Positions 3,369-21,599 of a stretch of DNA of 28,356 nucleotides are shown here, in pieces. The DNA is from a virus. The notes beneath the pieces are model-generated. The model had not been told where the DNA came from and ran no database searches. It saw nothing but the letters and a program-made list of their open reading frames with translations. Every line of letters begins with the position of its first letter. The first letter of the stretch is position 1. The translations under genes were made by a program, and so were the position numbers. The DNA lies in IMG/VR virus record IMGVR_UViG_3300043427_003205, positions 1 through 28,356 of that record, one strand, 5' to 3'.

Positions 3369-5281
3369 TGCAGCGTCTTGACTACGAGATAATTCGTGGT
3401 CCTAAGGATGCTTCTACATTGAAGACGATGTTGAAGCGGATGGTATCGACGAATAAGTGCTTAGGCGTGGATACGGAAACAACAGGACTTGATCCGCTTG
3501 TGAATCAAGTACGTTTAATTCAGATCGGGTCTGCTGACTTCGCACTGATCGTCGATCTCGATGGGTGGCGACGGCCAGGCGAACGTGCGGTGCCGTGGAA
3601 ATCACCAGGATTGCGGGAGTTGAAGAGCTACCTCGAGAGCGGAGCCCCGAAGGTGCTGCAGAATGCTGCGTTTGACCTGAACTTCCTGGGAGGTGAGGGA
3701 GTCGTCCTCGGGGGTGCGCTGTTCGACACGATGGTAGCCGCGAAGCTTGTGAACAATGGCTGTGGTGTGCGCAACGACTTGGGATCGATTACTGATCGTG
3801 TGCTTAAAGTCAAGCTTCCTAAGGAGCTGCAAAAGGCTGATTGGTCTGGCGAGATAACCGATGAGATGTTTCATTACGCAGCGCGAGATGTGATATGTCT
3901 GCCGATGCTTGTGAAGCCTTTGTCTGAAGCGCTGGTTGGATCGAAGATTAAGCCAGGCTTTACGTTGTGGGATTTGTTTCAGATTGAGATGGAAGTATTG
4001 AAGCCGATTGCGTTGATGCAAGGGCATGGTTTTGCTTTTGATCGAAAGAATGCGATTGAGTTACGCGCTCAGCTAGAGGAAGAAGCTGAGGCGTTGAAAC
4101 TGTCGTTCCTTCAGCTTTTAGAGGTGGAAATCAAGAAGCGACACTCAGAGGAGTCAGGTTTCTGGTTACCTCGTGAGGCAGATGGGAGCTTCAACACCAG
4201 GGAAAAGGAGTCGGGCTCGGTGCGGAAGGGCACGAAGCTTTACGCCGGGTTCAACCCGAGGTCGACCAAACAAATGGCCCAGCGGTTTGAGCAGGCCGGG
4301 ATTCTGCTGCCGCCAGATGAGAAGGGTGTCACGAGCCTGGATCAAAACCTGCTTGCGTTCTTACGAAAAGACTACGAGTTGATCGACAAGTATTTGACGT
4401 GGAAGACAGCTGTTACGCGCGTCTCCAGTATGGATACGTTGCTAGAAGCGATCGGCCCTGATGGTCGCATTCACTGCAATTACAAGCAGATGGGGACGGA
4501 GACGGGGCGTCTGTCGGCAGCGTCGCCGAATTTGCAGCAGGTGAATCGGAGCCCTGAGTTTCGGAGCAAGTTCATTGCGGAACCCGGGCACGTCCTCGTG
4601 GTGGCCGACTTCAGTCAGATCGAGCTGCGGGTGGCGGCGGAGCTCTCGGGGGAGGAGCGGATGCTCGAGGCATACCGGGCCGGGAGGGATCTGCACACCG
4701 AGACCGCAGCACTGATGACGGGTGTCGCCCTCGGGGAAGTCACCAAGAAGCAGCGCACTTCGGCCAAGGTGGCCAACTTCGGACTGCTCTACGGAGCTGG
4801 GGCGGCGACTCTGCGCAAGCAAGCTGTCGCTCAGTACGGCATTGATATAGAGCTCGAAGAAGCTCGTGAGATCGTCAACGGCTTTCGTAGTGCTTATCCT
4901 CGCCTTTATCAGTGGCAAGTGCAAGAGGGCAACAAGACGACGAAGGCGGTGACGACCGCTCTCGGGAGGAGGCGGATGCTCGTGGGGTTCAACGACAAAT
5001 ACACGACGCGGATCAACACCCAGGTGCAAGGGACCGCCGGGGACATTGCCAAGCTGGCGATTCGACGCTTGTGGCGCGAGATTTGTCAAGCGCCTGGGGG
5101 AGAAGCGAAGCTCATCGCCATGGTGCACGACGAGATCGTGCTCGAGGTGAGGGCTGAAGCCGCGGAGCATTGGTCTCAGGTGCTCAAGCGCTGCATGGAG
5201 GAAGCGGGCGCGGAGATCTGTAAGGAAGTGCCCATCGTTGCTGAGGTGTCGACAGGAGCGACGTGGGCAGACGCGAAGTGA
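3332..5281 (+). CDS. Family A DNA polymerase with 3'-5' exonuclease (DNA polymerase I-like)
   Basis: Phage replicative polymerase that copies DNA and proofreads. Exonuclease motifs: Exo I DTETTG (D47), Exo II NAAFD (N111-D115), Exo III YAARD (Y182-D186). Polymerase motifs: A DFSQIELR (about 426), B QRTSAKVANFGLLYG (about 474-488), C VHDE (598-601). There is no 5'-3' exonuclease domain, as in T7-like and many phage Pol I relatives. The position equivalent to E. coli Pol I 762 is Phe (F483). Start choice is uncertain: ATG at 3332 is given, but the TTG at 3368 or the ATG at 3416 are possible because the first 12 codons lie antisense to the small minus-strand gene. Composition alternates along the gene (A/T-rich at about 3780-4180, GC-rich after 4180). 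It follows the two helicase genes and precedes a regulator gene. Confidence 0.96.
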   Translation: MPSAQATRNAEALQRLDYEIIRGPKDASTLKTMLKRMVSTNKCLGVDTETTGLDPLVNQVRLIQIGSADFALIVDLDGWRRPGERAVPWKSPGLRELKSYLESGAPKVLQNAAFDLNFLGGEGVVLGGALFDTMVAAKLVNNGCGVRNDLGSITDRVLKVKLPKELQKADWSGEITDEMFHYAARDVICLPMLVKPLSEALVGSKIKPGFTLWDLFQIEMEVLKPIALMQGHGFAFDRKNAIELRAQLEEEAEALKLSFLQLLEVEIKKRHSEESGFWLPREADGSFNTREKESGSVRKGTKLYAGFNPRSTKQMAQRFEQAGILLPPDEKGVTSLDQNLLAFLRKDYELIDKYLTWKTAVTRVSSMDTLLEAIGPDGRIHCNYKQMGTETGRLSAASPNLQQVNRSPEFRSKFIAEPGHVLVVADFSQIELRVAAELSGEERMLEAYRAGRDLHTETAALMTGVALGEVTKKQRTSAKVANFGLLYGAGAATLRKQAVAQYGIDIELEEAREIVNGFRSAYPRLYQWQVQEGNKTTKAVTTALGRRRMLVGFNDKYTTRINTQVQGTAGDIAKLAIRRLWREICQAPGGEAKLIAMVHDEIVLEVRAEAAEHWSQVLKRCMEEAGAEICKEVPIVAEVSTGATWADAK

Positions 5282-5342
5282 GGCGGCGATTTACGCTGCA
5301 GGCTTGTGCAACCTAGTCTGGTTAGGCCTTCCACTTATCCCA

Positions 5343-5726
5343 ATGCTGACAGGCGCAGAACTGATCGATTTCGTCAAGGCGTCGGAATCGGCCAACGACA
5401 TGGAGCTCGCTCGTGCTGCTGGTTATGTGCGCACGACCAAGACTGGTAAGGAGCAGGTTCTGAAGAAAGCCTTCACGAACGCTCTGCTTGCTGCCAAAGG
5501 ACTCGAGCGTCCGATGGGCCGCGGGCCCGGCAAGACGGCCCGCTATGAGACCTCGGTTCACAAGAACGGTGTCATCCTGATCGGCAAGACGTACTCGGAG
5601 GTCTTCGGCCTGAACCCCGGCGACTTCCTGGACATCGTCATCGAGGCTGACTGCATCAAGCTGGTGCCGCAGCCCTTCGATGAGGAGGCTGAGGTGGCCG
5701 AAACCAAAGGCAAGGCCAAGGGCTGA
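5343..5726 (+). CDS. Cyanobacterial AbrB-like transcriptional regulator (cyAbrB family)
   Basis: Predicted DNA-binding regulator of 127 residues. The N-terminal part (MLTGAELIDFVKASESANDM ... LARAAGYVRTTKTGKEQ ... AFTNALLAAKGL) matches my memory of cyanobacterial cyAbrB proteins. Residues about 60-115 (TSVHKNGVILIGKTYSEVF ... LNPGDFLDIVI ... IKLVPQ) resemble the AbrB/SpoVT swapped-hairpin barrel that binds DNA. The C-terminus is acidic then lysine-rich. The reading frame is open upstream into the polymerase gene, but the ATG at 5343 starts exactly where family similarity begins. In cyanobacteria cyAbrB proteins are global regulators of carbon and nitrogen genes. A phage copy could act on phage promoters or modify host transcription; that role is inference. 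The next gene begins 3 bases after its stop. Confidence 0.85.
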   Translation: MLTGAELIDFVKASESANDMELARAAGYVRTTKTGKEQVLKKAFTNALLAAKGLERPMGRGPGKTARYETSVHKNGVILIGKTYSEVFGLNPGDFLDIVIEADCIKLVPQPFDEEAEVAETKGKAKG

Positions 5727-5729
5727 CCT

Positions 5730-5957
5730 GTGAGCAGCGCTGAAGAACGCGCTCGGTTGCTGAGTCGTCTTCAGCGCATCGCGGAGAAGCTCCCTAGTGG
5801 GCTTCTCCACCGCTTGGTATTAGATGCGCAGTTTTTTCACGATTGGAACATGCGTAAGAAAGGTGCGCGATCATCAGCGCGCCTTTCTCAATATAAAGCC
5901 CGCATAGAGCGGGCAGATGAAGCTTATTGGAAAAGAATCAAGCAGGGTTTGAGCTAA
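5730..5957 (+). CDS. Small basic hypothetical protein, 75 residues
   Basis: Starts with GTG 3 bases after the AbrB-like gene, so it is probably co-transcribed and coupled with it. The protein is basic and helical (LLSRLQRIAEKL ... QYKARIERADEAYWKRIKQGLS) with no signal peptide or membrane segment. I do not recognise the family; small phage DNA-binding proteins can look like this. Its last 4 bases overlap the end of the convergent excisionase-like gene. The coding DNA also contains three strong hairpins (listed separately), so part of the conservation here could be at RNA level. Confidence 0.65.
   Translation: MSSAEERARLLSRLQRIAEKLPSGLLHRLVLDAQFFHDWNMRKKGARSSARLSQYKARIERADEAYWKRIKQGLS
5783..5914 (+). 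other. Cluster of three strong hairpins inside a small gene
   Basis: Hairpin 1: GGAGAAGC (5783-5790) pairs with GCTTCTCC (5801-5808), 8 bp around a 10-base loop. Hairpin 2: positions 5857-5868 pair with 5877-5888, 12 bp with one G-T wobble and an 8-base loop. Hairpin 3: GCCCGC (5898-5903) pairs with GCGGGC (5909-5914), 6 bp with a 5-base loop. None is followed by a T tract on either strand, so simple intrinsic termination is unlikely. They lie just before the convergent boundary with the integration genes. They may be a structured RNA, a processing region or a rho-type boundary; role unknown. Confidence 0.55.
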
Positions 5958-6259
5958 CTCACCCTATTCCAGAACTGGTTGACAGCCTTGATACGGTGAA
6001 ATCTGTATCGGGGCCTTTTTGCTGTGCCGATGTTGCGGATGGCGTCACCGTGGATGATGCCTTTGCTCATCTGGTACACGAGTTGCTTGGGGTCTTTTAG
6101 ACTCACTAAACGGCAGAACTCTCGAGAGTCGACCCACTCACTGAGTTCTGTTTTAGCTTTATCGCTCTGTTGTTGATCGATGAACTCGATCAGCAGCTTC
6201 TCGATGCGTGCGATGCGGTCGGTGAGCTCATCGAGGACGAGGGGATCGATCACGGTCAC
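5954..6259 (-). CDS. Small DNA-binding protein, excisionase-like (candidate recombination directionality factor)
   Basis: 101 residues. The N-terminal half is a coiled-coil-like amphipathic helix (LDELTDRIARIEKLLIEFID). The C-terminal half (WVDSREFCRLVSLKDPKQLVYQMSKG ... RNIGTAKRPRYRFHR ... VNQFWNRV) reads like a helix-turn-helix followed by a basic wing, as in Xis/MerR-type small proteins. It lies 44 bases downstream of the integrase on the same strand, as expected for an int-xis pair. The start is GTG at 6259 with a second in-frame GTG two codons later. Its stop overlaps the stop region of the convergent 75-residue gene. Function is inferred from context and fold impression; it could instead be a general DNA-binding protein. 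Confidence 0.7.
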   Translation of the reverse strand: MTVIDPLVLDELTDRIARIEKLLIEFIDQQQSDKAKTELSEWVDSREFCRLVSLKDPKQLVYQMSKGIIHGDAIRNIGTAKRPRYRFHRIKAVNQFWNRVS

Positions 6260-6303: not shown

Positions 6304-7371
6304 TCAAAGCTGAATGCCGGCCAGGGCTTTCTGGATCCGGTCGGCCTCGATCCACCGTTTGTAGACGGCCTGGTGCGTGCTCAGGCTGTGTCCCATGAGT
6401 CTTGCCCCGAGCTCGGGGGCGACGCCGCGATCCATGAGCCGGAGGGCGTAAGCGTGGCGGAGGTTGTAGGGGCGGATCGCCACGCCGTCGCGATCCAGGG
6501 CGTCGAGGAAGGCTTTGGTGATGGTGCGGGCGCTCTGCCGAGGACGGTCGAGCTCGTGGAGGTGGAAGTGGGTCACCCAGCGGCTGGGGCAGGGGGTGAC
6601 GCGGCGGGCGCCGGTTTTGGTGGCGTCGCCGATCTGGATCCAGTCCTCGGGGAGCCACTCGAGGGCGGCGCACTCGTGGGGTCGAAGGCCGTAGGCGGCG
6701 CACATTCCCCAGGTCCATTGCCAGTGAGGGAGGCGGATGCGAGACCAGGCGGATTCGATGGCGGCGTCGGTGGGGATGTCGCGCTCGGTGAGCTGCTCGA
6801 CGCCGTAGCCGCGGCAGGCGGCGAGGAGGGGTTCGTGGTCGAGGCCCAGGGACTTGGCGACCTGAGCGAGGAGGTTGCCTTGGTCGCGGCGGCTGGCGCT
6901 GCCGGCGGGCATGCCACGGATGATGCGCAGGAGGATGGCTTCGGTGGCCGGGCCGGCGATCGGGAGCTTGTTGAGGGCCGGGCGCCATTTCTTTGACCAG
7001 GCGACGGAGCCGCGTTCGGGGTCGCGGGCGTATTTGGTGGCGTGGAGGCGTTCCGCGGCGGCGCGGAAGTCGGCCATGGTGAGGCCGCCCTCGGGGGTGG
7101 GGGCCGCGGGGGCCTCCCAGGCGGCCCAGGAGAAGGAGCCGGTGCGGAGCTGGTGACTGAGCTCGATGGCCTTGCGCTCGGCCTCGGAGAGGGCGGCGTA
7201 GTCGGCGGGGAGGCCCAGGGCGATGCGCTGGCGGCGGGCCGGACCGGTCCCCTTTCGGTCCACCAGGGTCGCCCGGAGGACCAAGCTGGCCTTGCGGCGC
7301 TCGATGGCGCACTTGTGGTGGCCTGCCTTCAGGCGGGTGTTGAGGTCGGCGAGCGCGGCGTCGATGGACAC
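6304..7371 (-). CDS. int: Tyrosine-family site-specific integrase
   Basis: Catalyses recombination between attP and a host attachment site. The tetrad residues are visible: box I arginine in GLRPHE (R230), box II arginine in YNLRHAYALR (R305), histidine in LMGHS (H328) and nucleophile tyrosine in HQAVYKRW (Y337). The usual box II first histidine is tyrosine (YNLRH), a common variant. I chose the GTG at 7371, giving 355 residues, because similarity to cyanobacterial integrases (SIDAALADLNTRL ... IERRKASLVLRATL ... QRIALGLP) begins there. The frame stays open up to 7617 but that extension reads through a terminator and a tRNA fragment. It reads in the same direction as the tRNA-Pro fragment, so after integration it would lie directly downstream of the restored host tRNA. 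A tyrosine integrase implies a temperate life cycle or temperate ancestry. Confidence 0.92.
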   Translation of the reverse strand: MSIDAALADLNTRLKAGHHKCAIERRKASLVLRATLVDRKGTGPARRQRIALGLPADYAALSEAERKAIELSHQLRTGSFSWAAWEAPAAPTPEGGLTMADFRAAAERLHATKYARDPERGSVAWSKKWRPALNKLPIAGPATEAILLRIIRGMPAGSASRRDQGNLLAQVAKSLGLDHEPLLAACRGYGVEQLTERDIPTDAAIESAWSRIRLPHWQWTWGMCAAYGLRPHECAALEWLPEDWIQIGDATKTGARRVTPCPSRWVTHFHLHELDRPRQSARTITKAFLDALDRDGVAIRPYNLRHAYALRLMDRGVAPELGARLMGHSLSTHQAVYKRWIEADRIQKALAGIQL

Positions 7372-7374
7372 GGC

Positions 7375-7395
7375 GGTGGACCGGAAGGTGGACCG
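7375..7395 (+). repeat. Candidate arm-type binding sites, left pair (GGTGGACCG x2)
   Basis: GGTGGACCG occurs at 7375-7383 and 7387-7395, a 12-base period, just upstream of the integrase start. A matching pair lies on the other side of the tRNA fragment at 7606-7625, and an inverted copy (CGGTCCACC) lies at 7256-7264 inside the integrase gene. Paired repeats on both sides of a core resemble the arm sites bound by integrase N-terminal domains or excisionases in lambda-type attP. Assignment as arm sites is inference. Confidence 0.6.
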
Positions 7396-7440
7396 ATTCT
7401 GTCGTCTGCGTTGGTCTGCTTGGACCCCGCAAGCACTTAA

Positions 7441-7470
7441 ATAGAAAAACCGCCTCCTGTGGGAAGCGGC
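7441..7470 (-). terminator. Intrinsic terminator on the minus strand just after the tRNA-Pro fragment
   Basis: Reading the minus strand, a 9-bp stem (arms at 7470-7462 and 7457-7449, with two G-T wobbles) closes a 4-base loop and is followed by five T residues (7449-7445). It lies about 32 bases downstream of the tRNA 3' end, where a host tRNA-Pro terminator would be expected. The plus-strand reading lacks a T tract. The phage seems to carry a tRNA terminator together with the tRNA 3' end, which would separate host tRNA transcription from integrase after integration. Confidence 0.8.
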
Positions 7471-7502
7471 TCTGCGACTGGGATCTCGGGATTTGACTGG
7501 AT

Positions 7503-7547
7503 CGGAGCGACAGGATTTGAACCTGCGACCCCCACTACCCCAAAGTG
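7503..7547 (-). other. attP core candidate: 3' half of tRNA-Pro(GGG)
   Basis: On the minus strand these 45 bases match the 3' part of a bacterial tRNA-Pro. They include four bases of the 5' anticodon stem, the loop TTGGGGT (anticodon GGG), the 3' anticodon stem AGTGG, a variable loop, a T arm with loop TTCAAAT, and the 3' acceptor strand CGCTCCG with discriminator A. The D arm and 5' acceptor strand are missing, so it is not a functional tRNA. Phage-type genes lie on both sides and the integrase is adjacent, as expected for an attP that would recreate the tRNA 3' end. Could also be an attL or attR if one side were host DNA, but the polymerase and helicases on one side and tail genes on the other argue against that. 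Confidence 0.85.
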
Positions 7548-7605: not shown

Positions 7606-7625
7606 GGTGGACCGCAAGTGGACCG
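7606..7625 (+). repeat. Candidate arm-type binding sites, right pair (GTGGACCG x2)
   Basis: GTGGACCG starts at 7607 and 7618, an 11-base period, 59 bases beyond the tRNA core on the side opposite the integrase. The pair mirrors the left pair in sequence and spacing. It overlaps the first codons of the endolysin frame, so integrase or excisionase binding here could affect lysis-gene expression. Site identity is inferred. Confidence 0.6.
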
Positions 7626-8794
7626 ACCTAGGCTTTGAAAAGTGGTCAGGTAAGCCCGTGGTTCAGGCTCGTAACAAAACGTTTTCGAACACCTGGGATG
7701 GGGTCGTTGCCGCCGCGCAGGCGACCGGCGCTCGCTTCCCCGAGCTCGTGGCGGCGCAATGGGCCCTGGAGAGTGGGTGGGGCAAGCACACGAGTGGCAA
7801 GAATAACTTCTTCGGTCTGAAGGGAGGTGGAACAGCAAAGCAAACACAAGAGGTAATCAATGGTAGAACTGTGACTATCACAGCGAGCTTTATTGATTTC
7901 CCTGATCTTGTGACTTGTGTAAGTTATTTGGTATCGCGTTGGTACAAGGATTGGAAAGACTATAAAGGTGTCAATAATGCAGTTAATCGTGAAGTTGCTG
8001 CGCGTTCGTTGGTTGAGCAAGGCTATGCAACTGATTCGGACTATGCCGAAAAGCTCATTGCACTGATGAATGAGAAAGCTCCGGTCTCGGGGGAGAAGCC
8101 GGGCGTTTCAACGAAAAACACGCCTCTATTTCAAATCACTGCGCTACAAGACACCTGGCTAAAGAAGGAGCCGGTACAGGCCACCGAGCTCGGGGGAAAG
8201 GAAAGGGTGCGCGTGGTGAAGGGGCGAGGCTATGCAGTTCTTGCATATTCCGAGGTCGCGGCGGATGCGCATGCGCGGGTGGAGCTAGCCGCGGGATCAG
8301 GGACGTGGTTTGTGTTCGAGCCTCATTGGAAGCGGGATCAGCCGATCGGTGAGGCGCTATCGGTTTCGGTGGATTGGCACGATTTCGACTGTCTTGTCAC
8401 CCCGAACCTGACTGTCGGTGAAGTTCTGCAGTGGGACCGGCGGAGGATTCCGGGGCCGAGTGCGGCAGTTCGGGCTCGGTTGCTCAAGACCGCACAGGAG
8501 TTTCAGGCAATTCGGGAGGCGTGGGGACAGCCGCTTGGGGTGACGAGCTTCTACAGGCCGGAGCCCATCAACAGGCAGGTGGGCGGCGTGCCCAACTCGA
8601 GGCATGTCACGGGGCAGGCCATGGACATCTACCCGGTGAACCGCGGTCTCGAGGAGTTCTATCAGTGGATTCGCCTCCGGTGGCGTGGCGGCCTCGGGGA
8701 TGGCCGACGCAAGGGCTTCATTCACCTCGACACTGATGGTGGTGGCTTTGTGCCAGGGGGCGGAGCTACACCATCAGCGATGTGGGACTACTGA
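7607..8794 (+). CDS. Two-domain endolysin: glucosaminidase plus M15-type peptidase
   Basis: Peptidoglycan hydrolase for host lysis. Residues about 28-160 form an N-acetylglucosaminidase (FlgJ/LYZ2-like) domain with WALESGWGKH (probable catalytic E55) and NNFFGLKG. Residues about 170-250 resemble an SH3-like linker domain. Residues about 255-395 form a peptidase M15A-like domain with SFYRPEPINRQVGG, SRHVTGQAMD (H333, D340) and FIHLD (H373), the expected zinc ligands and partner motif. There is no signal peptide, so export would need a holin-type partner. The start is uncertain: GTG 7607 is the first possible start after an in-frame stop at 7598, and GTG 7658 is an alternative that would clear the arm-site repeats. 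The gene is alone on the plus strand, flanked by attP and by convergent minus-strand lysis genes. Confidence 0.9.
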   Translation: MDRKWTDLGFEKWSGKPVVQARNKTFSNTWDGVVAAAQATGARFPELVAAQWALESGWGKHTSGKNNFFGLKGGGTAKQTQEVINGRTVTITASFIDFPDLVTCVSYLVSRWYKDWKDYKGVNNAVNREVAARSLVEQGYATDSDYAEKLIALMNEKAPVSGEKPGVSTKNTPLFQITALQDTWLKKEPVQATELGGKERVRVVKGRGYAVLAYSEVAADAHARVELAAGSGTWFVFEPHWKRDQPIGEALSVSVDWHDFDCLVTPNLTVGEVLQWDRRRIPGPSAAVRARLLKTAQEFQAIREAWGQPLGVTSFYRPEPINRQVGGVPNSRHVTGQAMDIYPVNRGLEEFYQWIRLRWRGGLGDGRRKGFIHLDTDGGGFVPGGGATPSAMWDY

Positions 8795-9859: not shown

Positions 9860-10357
9860 CTAGGGCGCAGGCACCCAGGCTTCATTGATCTCGGGTGTGC
9901 TGGGGTCGTCGGCGCGATAGGTGCCGTCTGGATTGCGGGCGCGAACTCTGGAGTTGAACACCTCCATCACATCTGACGGCAGATGACAGGCTGAGGCGAC
10001 GGCAGACACCTGATCACGCAGCGCATCGGAGATACAGCCGGCTTCACGCAACGCAACCCAGCAGGCACCGAAATCAGCAGGGCCAACGGATGCCATGGCA
10101 ATGGTTGCCGCTGGCAGGGCTAAGGCCGCAGCAGGTGCAATGCCAACGGCAGAAACCAGCGCTTCGTTCACATCGGGGCTGGAAAGGAGTGCTGCCTTAA
10201 AGGTACCCCAGTCGGGGGCGGGTGGTATCGCCAGGTATGCGGCGATAGCAGCCTCCTGTTCTTCGCGATTCATGGACAGCGGCAACACCAGCGGCTCGCG
10301 ATCAGGCGCAGTGTCGTCGGTGACGATCAAAGTGCTTGCGGTGTAGGAAAGTGCCAT
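9860..10357 (-). CDS. Hypothetical protein following the collagen-like fibre gene
   Basis: 165 residues: a beta-rich start ([20 protein letters not shown]), an alanine-rich helical middle (AAALALPAATIAMASVG, FGACWVALREAGC), and a hydrophilic C-terminus (VRARNPDGTYRADDPSTPEINEAWVPAP). The hydrophilic tail might be exposed. Its ATG overlaps the fibre stop by one base (TGATG), so it is coupled to the fibre gene and may be a fibre accessory or assembly protein. I do not recognise a family. Confidence 0.75.
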   Translation of the reverse strand: MALSYTASTLIVTDDTAPDREPLVLPLSMNREEQEAAIAAYLAIPPAPDWGTFKAALLSSPDVNEALVSAVGIAPAAALALPAATIAMASVGPADFGACWVALREAGCISDALRDQVSAVASACHLPSDVMEVFNSRVRARNPDGTYRADDPSTPEINEAWVPAP

Positions 10358-12108
10358 CAGAGTACGGAGTTGATTCTCAGAAACACAGCAGCCGCTCTAA
10401 AAGCGGAACCAAGGGAGTCAAAGGTGCTTGATGTTACGTCTGGCCAAGTGCCATACGTCTGGCCAAGCGCGATTGCTTTAGGATCTATGTTTGCAGCGGC
10501 ATTTGAAACACCTGCAAGCGTTGACGCACCAACAAGGGTTGCAATGCTTGAGTTTGCGCCTGAAAGGGTTGAAAAGGCTAAAGCAGTATTATTTCTATTT
10601 ATTGCTGCGTAGTATAGCTTTCCTGCTTCTAGTGTAAAGGGTGTTAAATCCGCAGACTCTACTGTCGTTGCCGTTGCTCCACTTAGATCTCCGGTTGCGC
10701 CAAGTGGCGTGCCAGTGGGATCGTTTGTTGCATTGGCGGCATAGATAGCAAGTTGAAAATTACTTGACGCAGCTAATGTCGTGACGCGAGCACCGAGCCT
10801 GTTCACCGTAACACTGCGCCAAACAAAAAATGGAAGGAAGAAAATGGTATTTGCGTTAGTTGCACCGCCAGCGACCACCGAAGATGTGTAAGGCCAAATC
10901 CAATTTGAGGCTTTATAGGCTGGCACCACAAGGGCAGACACCGTATTCCAGGTGCCGTCGTCCTTCAGGTACTTGCCGCTGGGCGTGCCGGTCGCCGGCG
11001 CCAGCCCCGCTGTAGACGTGGAGACTAGGGGCAACGTCGCGTCAGTCCCGGTCGAGCTGCGCACCTCTCGGGTGGCGGCGTCGTAAGTGATGTCGGTGGC
11101 GACGTTGACCTGGGCACCACTGGCGATCCCATCCAACTTCGCCTTATCCGCCGCGCTCATCGAGCCCGCAGCGCTGGTCGTGGCCGCTGTGATCGCCACC
11201 GTCTGCGTCGGGGCGTCGTAGGTGAGTGGTGCCGTGGCGGCGACCACGCCGGCGGGGCCCTGGGCGCCGGCTGCACCTGCAGGGCCGGTGGGGCCGGTTG
11301 CGCCAGTTGGTCCCTGAGGTCCGGTATCTCCCGTGTCGCCCTTTGGTCCTGCTGGGCCCGTCGCGCCAGTTGGCCCTTGCGGACCCGTAGCGCCTGCAGG
11401 GCCTTGGGCACCCACCAGCGACGCCAACCACTGCGCTTCGGTGCCGACGAATCCGCCAGCCACCGCCACCTGATAGGCGCTGCTGCCTGCGGCTCCAGTG
11501 GGTCCAACAGCTCCTGCAGGGCCTTGGGCGCCCGTGGCTCCAGCGGGGCCGGTGCCACCGGCTGGCCCCTGAGCACCAGCAGCGCCTGCAGGGCCCACCA
11601 GGCTGACGCCAGCAGGCCACACCCCGCCAGCCTTCGGTCCGTAGATGACCGACGCAGCGGTGTCGATGAAGAAATCGCCGTTGGCGCCTGTGCCGCTGCT
11701 TGGCGCACTGGTGCCGCTCAGTAGCGTCCGCCCGTCAGTCCCGGCTGGGCCTTGCGCACCCGATGTGCCCTGTGGACCCTGCGGTCCAGTTGCCCCTGCT
11801 GGGCCCTGCTGCCCTTGAGCAATGCTGTAGATGGGCGATCCCCAGGCGCCGGCAGCCTTTGGACCGTAGATGTCGCCGTTGGTGGTGTTCAGGTAGAAGT
11901 CGCCGTTGGCACCGAGGCCGTTGGCCGGAACGCCAGCACCCTGCAGCCAAGCGGAGCCGAGTCCGGCGGGGCCTGTCGCCCCTGTCGCGCCGGCTGGTCC
12001 CTGCGGGCCTGGTGCGGTCGCCTCGACCACCCTCGGAACGCTGGCGCCTGTCAGTTCGACGGTCGCCTGCGACGCAGGAACAATCTGGACTTCAACCTGA
12101 TTGCTCAT
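10357..12108 (-). CDS. Collagen-like tail fibre protein
   Basis: 583 residues. Long Gly-X-Y stretches ([27 protein letters not shown] and others) occupy much of residues 30-290 and would form a trimeric collagen-like shaft. Two copies of a globular motif interrupt the shaft: [20 protein letters not shown] and [20 protein letters not shown]. After a short link ([18 protein letters not shown]), a non-repetitive C-terminal domain (about 390-583) probably binds the cell surface. Phage-borne collagen repeats are well known in tail fibres. The start overlaps the upstream gene's stop by 4 bases. The 5' shaft is GC-rich while the C-terminal domain DNA (10360-10920) is more A/T-rich, consistent with exchange of the binding tip. 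Confidence 0.92.
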
Positions 12109-20409: not shown

Positions 20410-21599
20410 GGCAGGTCAATCCTCGACTTTAATTGTACGGTGAGAGTTGAAACACCCTTGAATACGGATTGAATGACGGGGCGTTCTTCGAAGTACCATT
20501 TGTTCAACGTCCCTGTCAGGCGGATGTAATTTGCTACGGCTGGTGTAGCACTTGCCAGCAACTCATCAGGCAAGAAAAAGCCGTAGCGCTCGCCGTAGGA
20601 TTCGTCGTAGGCATCCGCAACACGACGAGCATCGACATCGCTGATGTTTTCGTAGTCGATCGTGAGCATGGCATTGCTAGGTCGGGAGCACATCAGCTTG
20701 CGAGTGGCGCCGCCACTCATGGCGTAGACCCGTTCGATGCCATAGCGAGGGGCTTCAAAGCTCATGTTGGTCGGAGCAAAGGGAGGCAGGTATCCAGTCA
20801 GGATGCGACGAAGTTCGCCCCTACCACTTCCAATCAGGATTTGGCTGGAGAAGCCAACCAGGAAGTTGTTTTTTAAGACAGCCTGGGGACTGCTGATCTC
20901 AATGGTTGATGGGAGCAGCTGCATCGACAGCTGCGGAGAGATCTGCGTCGCCGAGCTCCCGATGAGAACCGAGGCCGACTCCAGCGTATTGAAATACAGC
21001 TTCGTGATCGAGCTGTAGATACCCAGGTCGAAGGTGATGAGCGAAACCTGCCTGGAATAGACCAGGGTTGCGGCTGTGCTGGAAAGCCTGAGTTCACCTG
21101 ATTGCAGCGACCACTGATCAATGGCGCCCGACCCGACGCTGATGATGCTGGCGGGCGGTGCAAAGTCGCGCAGAAGGATGGCAGTAAGCTGGCCGGATCC
21201 GATTTGGATCGTGCCGCTCTCGGTGCCCCATTGATCGATGACGCCGGACGCCAGCGTGATCGTGCTGGGGAGCAGCGTCAGTTCGCGGATCAGCGTTGCG
21301 GTAAGCGGCCCAGACCCGATCTGAATCGTGCCGCTCTCGGTGGCCCACGGTGCAGTGACAGGCGAGCTGCCGATCGAGACGACGGAGGTCTCGTGCTGAT
21401 ACTTATATTTGTCGAGCCAGAAATTGCCGTAGCTGATAACGGCAATCGTGCTGGGCTGCGCAAGCAGCCTATTGCCCAGCAGGATGATGTAGTCGCGCTC
21501 GTCCGTAGACGAGGTGCCACCGACAACGATGTAGTCCCTGGCGGGAGATTCGCTACTCCCGCCGCCTCTGACTAGATCAATGTCAGATGGATCGATCAT
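20406..21599 (-). CDS. Modular tail protein with tandem N-terminal repeats and shared C-terminal module
   Basis: 397 residues. Residues about 80-190 hold tandem 39-residue repeats (TESGTIQIGSGPLTATL, TESGTIQIGSGQLTAIL, a weaker LQSGELRLSSTAATLV), visible in DNA as a 117-base period between about 21180 and 21350. Residues about 270-397 are the shared module (MLTIDYENISDVDA, YGFFLPDELLASA, WYFEERP). It overlaps neighbours on both sides by 4 bases. Likely virion tail component; the repeats may set a shaft length or give several binding surfaces. Confidence 0.75.
   Translation of the reverse strand: MIDPSDIDLVRGGGSSESPARDYIVVGGTSSTDERDYIILLGNRLLAQPSTIAVISYGNFWLDKYKYQHETSVVSIGSSPVTAPWATESGTIQIGSGPLTATLIRELTLLPSTITLASGVIDQWGTESGTIQIGSGQLTAILLRDFAPPASIISVGSGAIDQWSLQSGELRLSSTAATLVYSRQVSLITFDLGIYSSITKLYFNTLESASVLIGSSATQISPQLSMQLLPSTIEISSPQAVLKNNFLVGFSSQILIGSGRGELRRILTGYLPPFAPTNMSFEAPRYGIERVYAMSGGATRKLMCSRPSNAMLTIDYENISDVDARRVADAYDESYGERYGFFLPDELLASATPAVANYIRLTGTLNKWYFEERPVIQSVFKGVSTLTVQLKSRIDLP

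Follow-up and report, generated by a model that had tools for sequence, protein, structure and literature searches.

Among the nearest described counterparts of the locus reported here is the anticodon-centred class of tRNA attachment sites in the Islander set, in which the phage-type site (attP) holds part of the target gene, so that the gene is restored on integration, the integrase gene lies adjacent and the 3′ type is common (PMC4383910). In that set, 3760 of 3919 islands have 3′ fragments and 159 of 3919 have 5′ fragments (PMC4383910), so the 5′ type is known but uncommon. The T7-like cyanophages P-SSP7 and S-TIP37 also combine an integrase with an attP identical to a host tRNA region, and their integration has been shown experimentally (PMC8776855). 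They are podoviruses, use tRNA-Leu and yield no stable lysogens (PMC8776855), so an integrase together with an attP need not mean lysogeny. P-SS2 and S-LBS1, like our phage, are integrase-bearing picocyanobacterial siphoviruses, and the S-LBS1 tail protein and the P-SS2 integrase are distant relatives of its proteins. Their sites differ, however: P-SS2 has a 53-bp match that includes 36 bp of tRNA-Met (PMC2784084), and the att proposed for S-LBS1 is a 14-nt motif inside open reading frames (ORFs) (PMC6157547). In the Planktothrix phage PaV-LD (NC_016564), a tRNA-Pro(GGG) 3′ half, a terminator-like hairpin, short repeats and an integrase follow one another in the order found here, but the genome and host are others, and the PaV-LD integrase has no tblastn match to the family studied here, with a weak match elsewhere in locus L004 only. 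The layout found here resembles that of helper-embedded PICIs, whose attP has a doubled arm motif on either side of its centre, at 81 bp on the upstream and 132 bp on the downstream side (PMC10111431), and P4-like satellites carry defence hotspots (PMC9122126); both use an integrase and a target other than those described below.

Here we analyse a virus record of 28,356 bases, hereafter the window. We are highly confident that it contains the attP of a cyanobacterial siphovirus, whose tyrosine integrase recombines this site with the host tRNA-Pro(GGG) gene, and that the module is also used by defence islands. Comparison shows part of this explanation, namely the exact 3′ half, the tRNA-type terminator, the flanking arm-like repeats and the homologous integrases 3′ of the gene; the arm sites, the excisionase and the crossover point are predictions from sequence only. 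A site of this kind is ordinary in itself. The notable part is that it is shared with defence islands and that its attP occurs in two polarities: the window's integrase family also includes carriers of the 5′ half, and in the part of the Islander report covered we found no statement on a single family that uses both.

A tRNA-Pro(GGG) 3′ half next to a tyrosine integrase

The minus strand of the window at positions 7502–7547 reads CACTTTGGGGTAGTGGGGGTCGCAGGTTCAAATCCTGTCGCTCCGA, 46 nt that comprise, in this order, CACTTTGGGGTAGTG, the variable region, the T arm, the acceptor strand and the discriminator A. A sequence-only reading had placed a 45-base 3′ fragment at 7503–7547; its tRNA-Pro identity stands, and its start is corrected to take in the discriminator A at 7502, which had been left out. 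Neither ARAGORN nor Rfam called a complete tRNA in the window, as expected where only a tRNA fragment is present. The identical 46-mer occurs at 47 loci of the genome collection, nearly all of them labelled as cyanobacteria: mostly Synechococcus, Cyanobium, Vulcanococcus and uncultured relatives, with a few Leptolyngbya, Acaryochloris-type and other cyanobacteria. At 44 of the 47 loci a canonical tRNA-Pro 5′ half adjoins the 46-mer, and ARAGORN names the gene tRNA-Pro(ggg); the remaining three (L024, L045 and L055) have the 3′ half without a canonical 5′ half, although ARAGORN still calls a tRNA in L055 despite its non-canonical 5′ part. The window fragment is thus identical to a host tRNA from the proposed crossover to the 3′ end, and we judge that chance cannot explain an exact match of 46 nt to a host gene. 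Locus L046, from a metagenome-assembled genome (MAG) labelled Bifidobacterium breve, carries a cyanobacterial tRNA-Pro locus with a picocyanobacteria-like leader and terminator and is probably a mislabelled bin.

The fragment lies 130 nt from the gene for a tyrosine integrase of 355 aa (6304–7371, minus strand), assigned from Pfam PF00589 (E 2.3e-4, with a score under the curated cut-off), a clear match to the PHROG 1 integrase (E 1.8e-11) and alignment. Tyrosine recombinases have a catalytic set of R, K, H/Y-x-x-R, H/W and a Tyr nucleophile, and the window integrase possesses it: R230, K252, Y302-x-x-R305, H328 and Y337 are invariant in an alignment of nine relatives, in all of which (9/9) a Tyr takes the place of the box II His. 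An ORF of 101 aa (5954–6259, minus strand) with no Pfam match follows the integrase directly; it is kept beside the integrase in phages and islands and is a possible excisionase. Past the integrase lie polA, helicase and AAA genes, and of the window proteins that were scanned the only one resembling a regulator is AbrB-like (5238–5726, plus strand; Pfam PF14250, E 1.2e-14). Beyond the opposite end of attP, domain and PHROG searches identify an endolysin with glucosaminidase and M15 peptidase domains (7607–8794, plus strand); its listed GTG start overlaps the left arm, and its true start is uncertain. Phage genes therefore flank the fragment, as the earlier reading had it.

Anatomy of the attP

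The attP is about 250 bp long; the tRNA 3′ half is its core, and it also has paired arm-type repeats and a tRNA-type terminator, with the integrase immediately after it. Read in tRNA orientation from the endolysin to the integrase, the order is two CGGTCCAC repeats, the tRNA 3′ half, the terminator and a second CGGTCCAC pair. The left (P) arm, at 7606–7625 (minus strand), holds two copies at 11-bp spacing, and the right (P′) arm, just before the integrase start at 7375–7395 (minus strand), two copies at 12-bp spacing; each is a putative integrase arm-binding dyad. Four of the six occurrences of CGGTCCAC in the window, counting both strands, are these arm sites. Many relatives have analogous pairs of varied sequence near −254 and −24 relative to the start of the integrase, the left-arm position being the same in several; a scripted search gave none for L082 and L096, and in some other relatives the pairs were on one side only or shifted. 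The repeat pairs around the core, whose placement in the window is much like that in many relatives, may be the arm-type sites of a lambda-like bipartite attP, and we infer that the CGGTCCAC pairs are integrase arm sites.

An intrinsic terminator, detected by a terminator scan, lies between the tRNA 3′ half and the integrase (7443–7473, minus strand; stem 7473–7446), and the fold of 7440–7503 has a free energy of −20.1 kcal/mol (z −3.17). The 62 nt past the tRNA fragment align to the downstream regions of host tRNA-Pro genes, and 14 of the host-collection loci compared, some of them sites filled by related integrases, outscore every one of 200 shuffled versions of the window block. Given this alignment, the phage seems to have captured, or to mimic, the terminator of the host tRNA-Pro gene, which would stop transcripts of the tRNA from running on into the integrase.

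The 3′ half as a whole had previously been taken for the attP core. It does form the core region, but the most probable crossover core is the anticodon stem-loop, CACT-TTGGGGT-AGTG (7533–7547, minus strand), the remainder of the 3′ half and the terminator being replacement sequence. We place the crossover in the anticodon loop because CACTTTGGGGTAGTG, or less of it, the left stem being different in L003 and L070, is the only tRNA sequence common to the 3′-half carriers and to a second kind of viral contig, described below, that carries the 5′ half. The strands would be exchanged over the 7 bp of the anticodon loop, TTGGGGT, and the two sides of the anticodon stem would be the inverted core-binding sites. 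Integration would join the host 5′ half to the phage 3′ half and terminator, so that the tRNA gene would be complete and transcription would stop before the integrase, and the displaced host 3′ half would mark the far end of the element. Genomic islands with anti-phage defence genes have made use of the same integrase and attP module.

Host genomes with a filled site

The sequence-only reading had predicted tRNA-Pro(GGG) as the target, in a cyanobacterial host, and host genomes bear this out. In addition to the 47 loci with the 46-mer, the gene is immediately followed on its 3′ side by a homologous integrase at four of these loci (L020, L032, L041 and L042, the last two integrases broken) and in genome G581, and the duplicated 3′ end that had been proposed as a check exists: three of those genomes have a displaced 3′ half at another place. 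Neither of the two observations named beforehand as contrary to the prediction, a lack of any identical host 3′ half and host genes beside the fragment, was made. For a group of cyanosiphoviruses about which little is known, the locus supplies a host-integration site that can be tested, and the tRNA-Pro(GGG) variant with its terminator provides a sequence tag that narrows host prediction for uncultured phages.

Among 400 genomes from the family to which Vulcanococcus limneticus LL belongs, 224 contain the 3′ half, T-stem variants allowed, and three of the 224 contain two copies (G001, G002 and G581), which in two of the three are on different contigs of a draft assembly. In G002 (MAG MsE-30apr19-67), one contig has an intact tRNA-Pro followed by an integrase of 51% identity and another has a bare 3′ half; compared with the empty locus of Baikal-G1, the match is 95.8% over 4002 nt up to the tRNA and 86.1% over 2253 nt beyond the displaced fragment. 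G001 (Vulcanococcus limneticus LL) has an integrase of 52% identity, and both flanks match L038 at about 79–85%, in pieces. The two copies in G581 are 80.4 kb apart on one contig; its right flank had no blastn match among the fetched host flanks, so the insertion is argued from the presence of both copies on that contig. The sites in these three genomes are filled by homologous integrases and not by the window phage itself. At L045, a bare fragment has a downstream flank that matches L047 and L029.

In G520, an integrase of 53% identity (C49:100873, L186) has no tRNA-Pro upstream, and the genome's tRNA-Pro is intact elsewhere; this is a counter-example in target use and possibly a change of target. 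A phylum-wide genome search gave 102 matches in 386 at E ≤ 1e-40, mainly of a second class near 150–250 bits, which we did not count as filled sites, resident recombinases apparently being among them. Many small picocyanobacterial genomes among the 386 cyanobacterial genomes searched have one related recombinase at about 220–250 bits, possibly a resident chromosomal enzyme.

Defence islands at the same site, and phage lifestyle

The occupants of the site that we examined are defence islands, not prophages. Islands at tRNA-Pro(GGG) with related integrases (L060–L062, L063–L064 and L181–L185) carry DISARM, type I restriction and type I-E CRISPR–Cas genes. The G002 cargo comprises DrmD, DrmMI, DrmA, DrmB and DrmC together with Fic and a HepT-type pair, on the contig of the displaced fragment; because the contigs are separate, we infer its placement inside the element. 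In G001, type I restriction subunits adjoin the integrase module. G581 carries Cas3, Cse1, a CT1975-type Cas protein, two VapE-like proteins, phage-type replication genes and one endolysin match, with no head, portal or terminase family among the matches listed (25 of 46 families). In the G001 and G002 islands the integrase and a small ORF are followed by a Prim-Pol/AAA_25 protein, which the related phage G006 has too, and island and phage integrases interleave on the tree. With their integrase, small ORF, primase-like gene and defence cargo, the islands resemble, in gene content, P4-like satellites with defence hotspots. The tRNA-Pro(GGG) gene is a docking site shared by phages and defence islands of freshwater picocyanobacteria, and a setting for studies of their competition.

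For the phage, integration is well supported and stable lysogeny is possible. The sequence-only reading had gone from the fragment to true lysogeny, which the data do not support: an integrase and an attP give a capacity to integrate, and the occupants read were islands. We see a substantial chance, somewhat short of even, that integration of the phage is no more than a transient or infrequent event within a lytic cycle and gives no stable lysogens, a reading that concerns its lifestyle and leaves the site as it is. Integration into tRNA-Leu without stable lysogens is on record for the T7-like cyanophages (PMC8776855); a relative of the tail gene was present in 0 of 390 host-family genomes, with a query that does match G006; and no repressor was recognised in the part of the window's ORFs that was scanned. 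Yet related integrases belong to islands that are stably integrated here, so stable insertion is within the capacity of this class of integrase, and absence from a set with one genome per species is weak evidence.

A phage family with a conserved attP layout

A single-protein search of viral contigs with the integrase yielded two loci, of which one lies on a contig that is nearly a copy of the region in the window, whereas with a profile built from nine sequences 80 of 113 viral loci were kept as confirmed. Pattern scans found the window's fragment variant in 8 viral contigs and other T-stem variants in 16, and a homologous integrase lies 130–180 nt downstream of the 3′ half in 22 of these 24; the exceptions are L200, which has no integrase, and L206, which stops 80 nt beyond the fragment. 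The phage variants match host variants, including one with a changed T-loop base. G006, a relative of 52 kb, is colinear with the window and has portal, capsid and terminase genes among the gene families listed (25 of 106 with matches); a repressor may be present among the others.

Many public viral contigs are proviruses, so the fragment might be host contamination or an attL/attR junction, with the window a piece of prophage bearing host DNA on one side. We consider this very improbable: the phage genes on both sides, in the same order in many contigs including the 52-kb relative with its structural genes, argue that neither side is host DNA, and no 5′ half adjoins the fragment. Nor, although tRNA genes and fragments can occur in phages, do the near-constant distance to the integrase (22 of 24 contigs), the flanking arm repeats with the exact host match, and the integrase homologues at the same gene in hosts leave more than a sliver of probability to the idea of a captured tRNA in decay, or of an RNA derived from a tRNA, whose function has nothing to do with integration.

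No close isolate was found in the phage collection. Tail matches to S-LBS1, S-CBS1/3 and Mic1 are at 24–30% over about a quarter of the protein, the integrase matches P-SS2 only among phage isolates (29% over 43%), and the sole match in a nucleotide search of named phages with window positions 1–25000 was 46 bp in PaV-LD. L095, with an integrase of 42% identity, has no recognisable tRNA fragment, and the contig of L074 (69%) starts at the integrase, its upstream attP falling outside the contig. Upstream of more distant integrase relatives (28–31%; L099, L105, L111, L138 and similar) lie 3′ halves of other tRNAs, whose anticodons look, by eye, like TCT, TAA and CGA.

An attP that carries the 5′ half

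Nine contigs (L069, L077–L081, L089, L090 and L194) carry the exact 5′ half of tRNA-Pro(GGG), ending TAGTG, with the integrase 161–166 nt downstream, at the same attP position as the 3′ half; in L091, an integrase relative, the 5′ half is degenerate. Anticodon loop and integrase are about equally far apart in both kinds, by 171–177 nt in the 5′ types compared and by 159–192 nt in the 3′ types, among which 171–173 nt is common. The idea that the 5′-half carriers are host junctions was rejected for the eight contigs other than L194, given that 6 of the 9 have a lysin match beyond the fragment and that L089 and L090 have structural phage genes there. Displaced 5′ halves were found in 0 of 400 host genomes, so use of the 5′ type was not seen in hosts. 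In the part of the literature covered, we found no description of one integrase family that uses both 3′ and 5′ fragments. The occurrence of both attP forms at one crossover constitutes a natural experiment on attP evolution.

The 5′ carriers occupy two supported places on the integrase tree, which we first read as two independent switches to the 5′ half. This reading is weakened by the left arms of the two lineages, which are 88% identical against a background of about 60%, whereas the integrases are 66% and the right arms 56% identical. Because of the left-arm identity, a single origin of the 5′ type followed by transfer of the left arm appears at least as likely as two origins. A wider scenario, which we put forward tentatively and think rather unlikely as a whole, is that one integrase and attP module has been shared and repeatedly exchanged between picocyanobacterial siphoviruses and satellite-like islands with DISARM, restriction or CRISPR genes, all docking in one tRNA-Pro gene. 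The islands would parasitise or exclude phages through this common doorway, and the phage attP would have switched tRNA half while keeping crossover and arm geometry, the 5′-half arm moving by recombination.

Two further features of the window lie away from the attP. A tandem duplication of 117 nt (21111–21344), its copies 72% identical, is situated inside an ORF of 397 aa, and a protein of 583 aa (10357–12108) shows, by eye, collagen-like G-x-x repeats.
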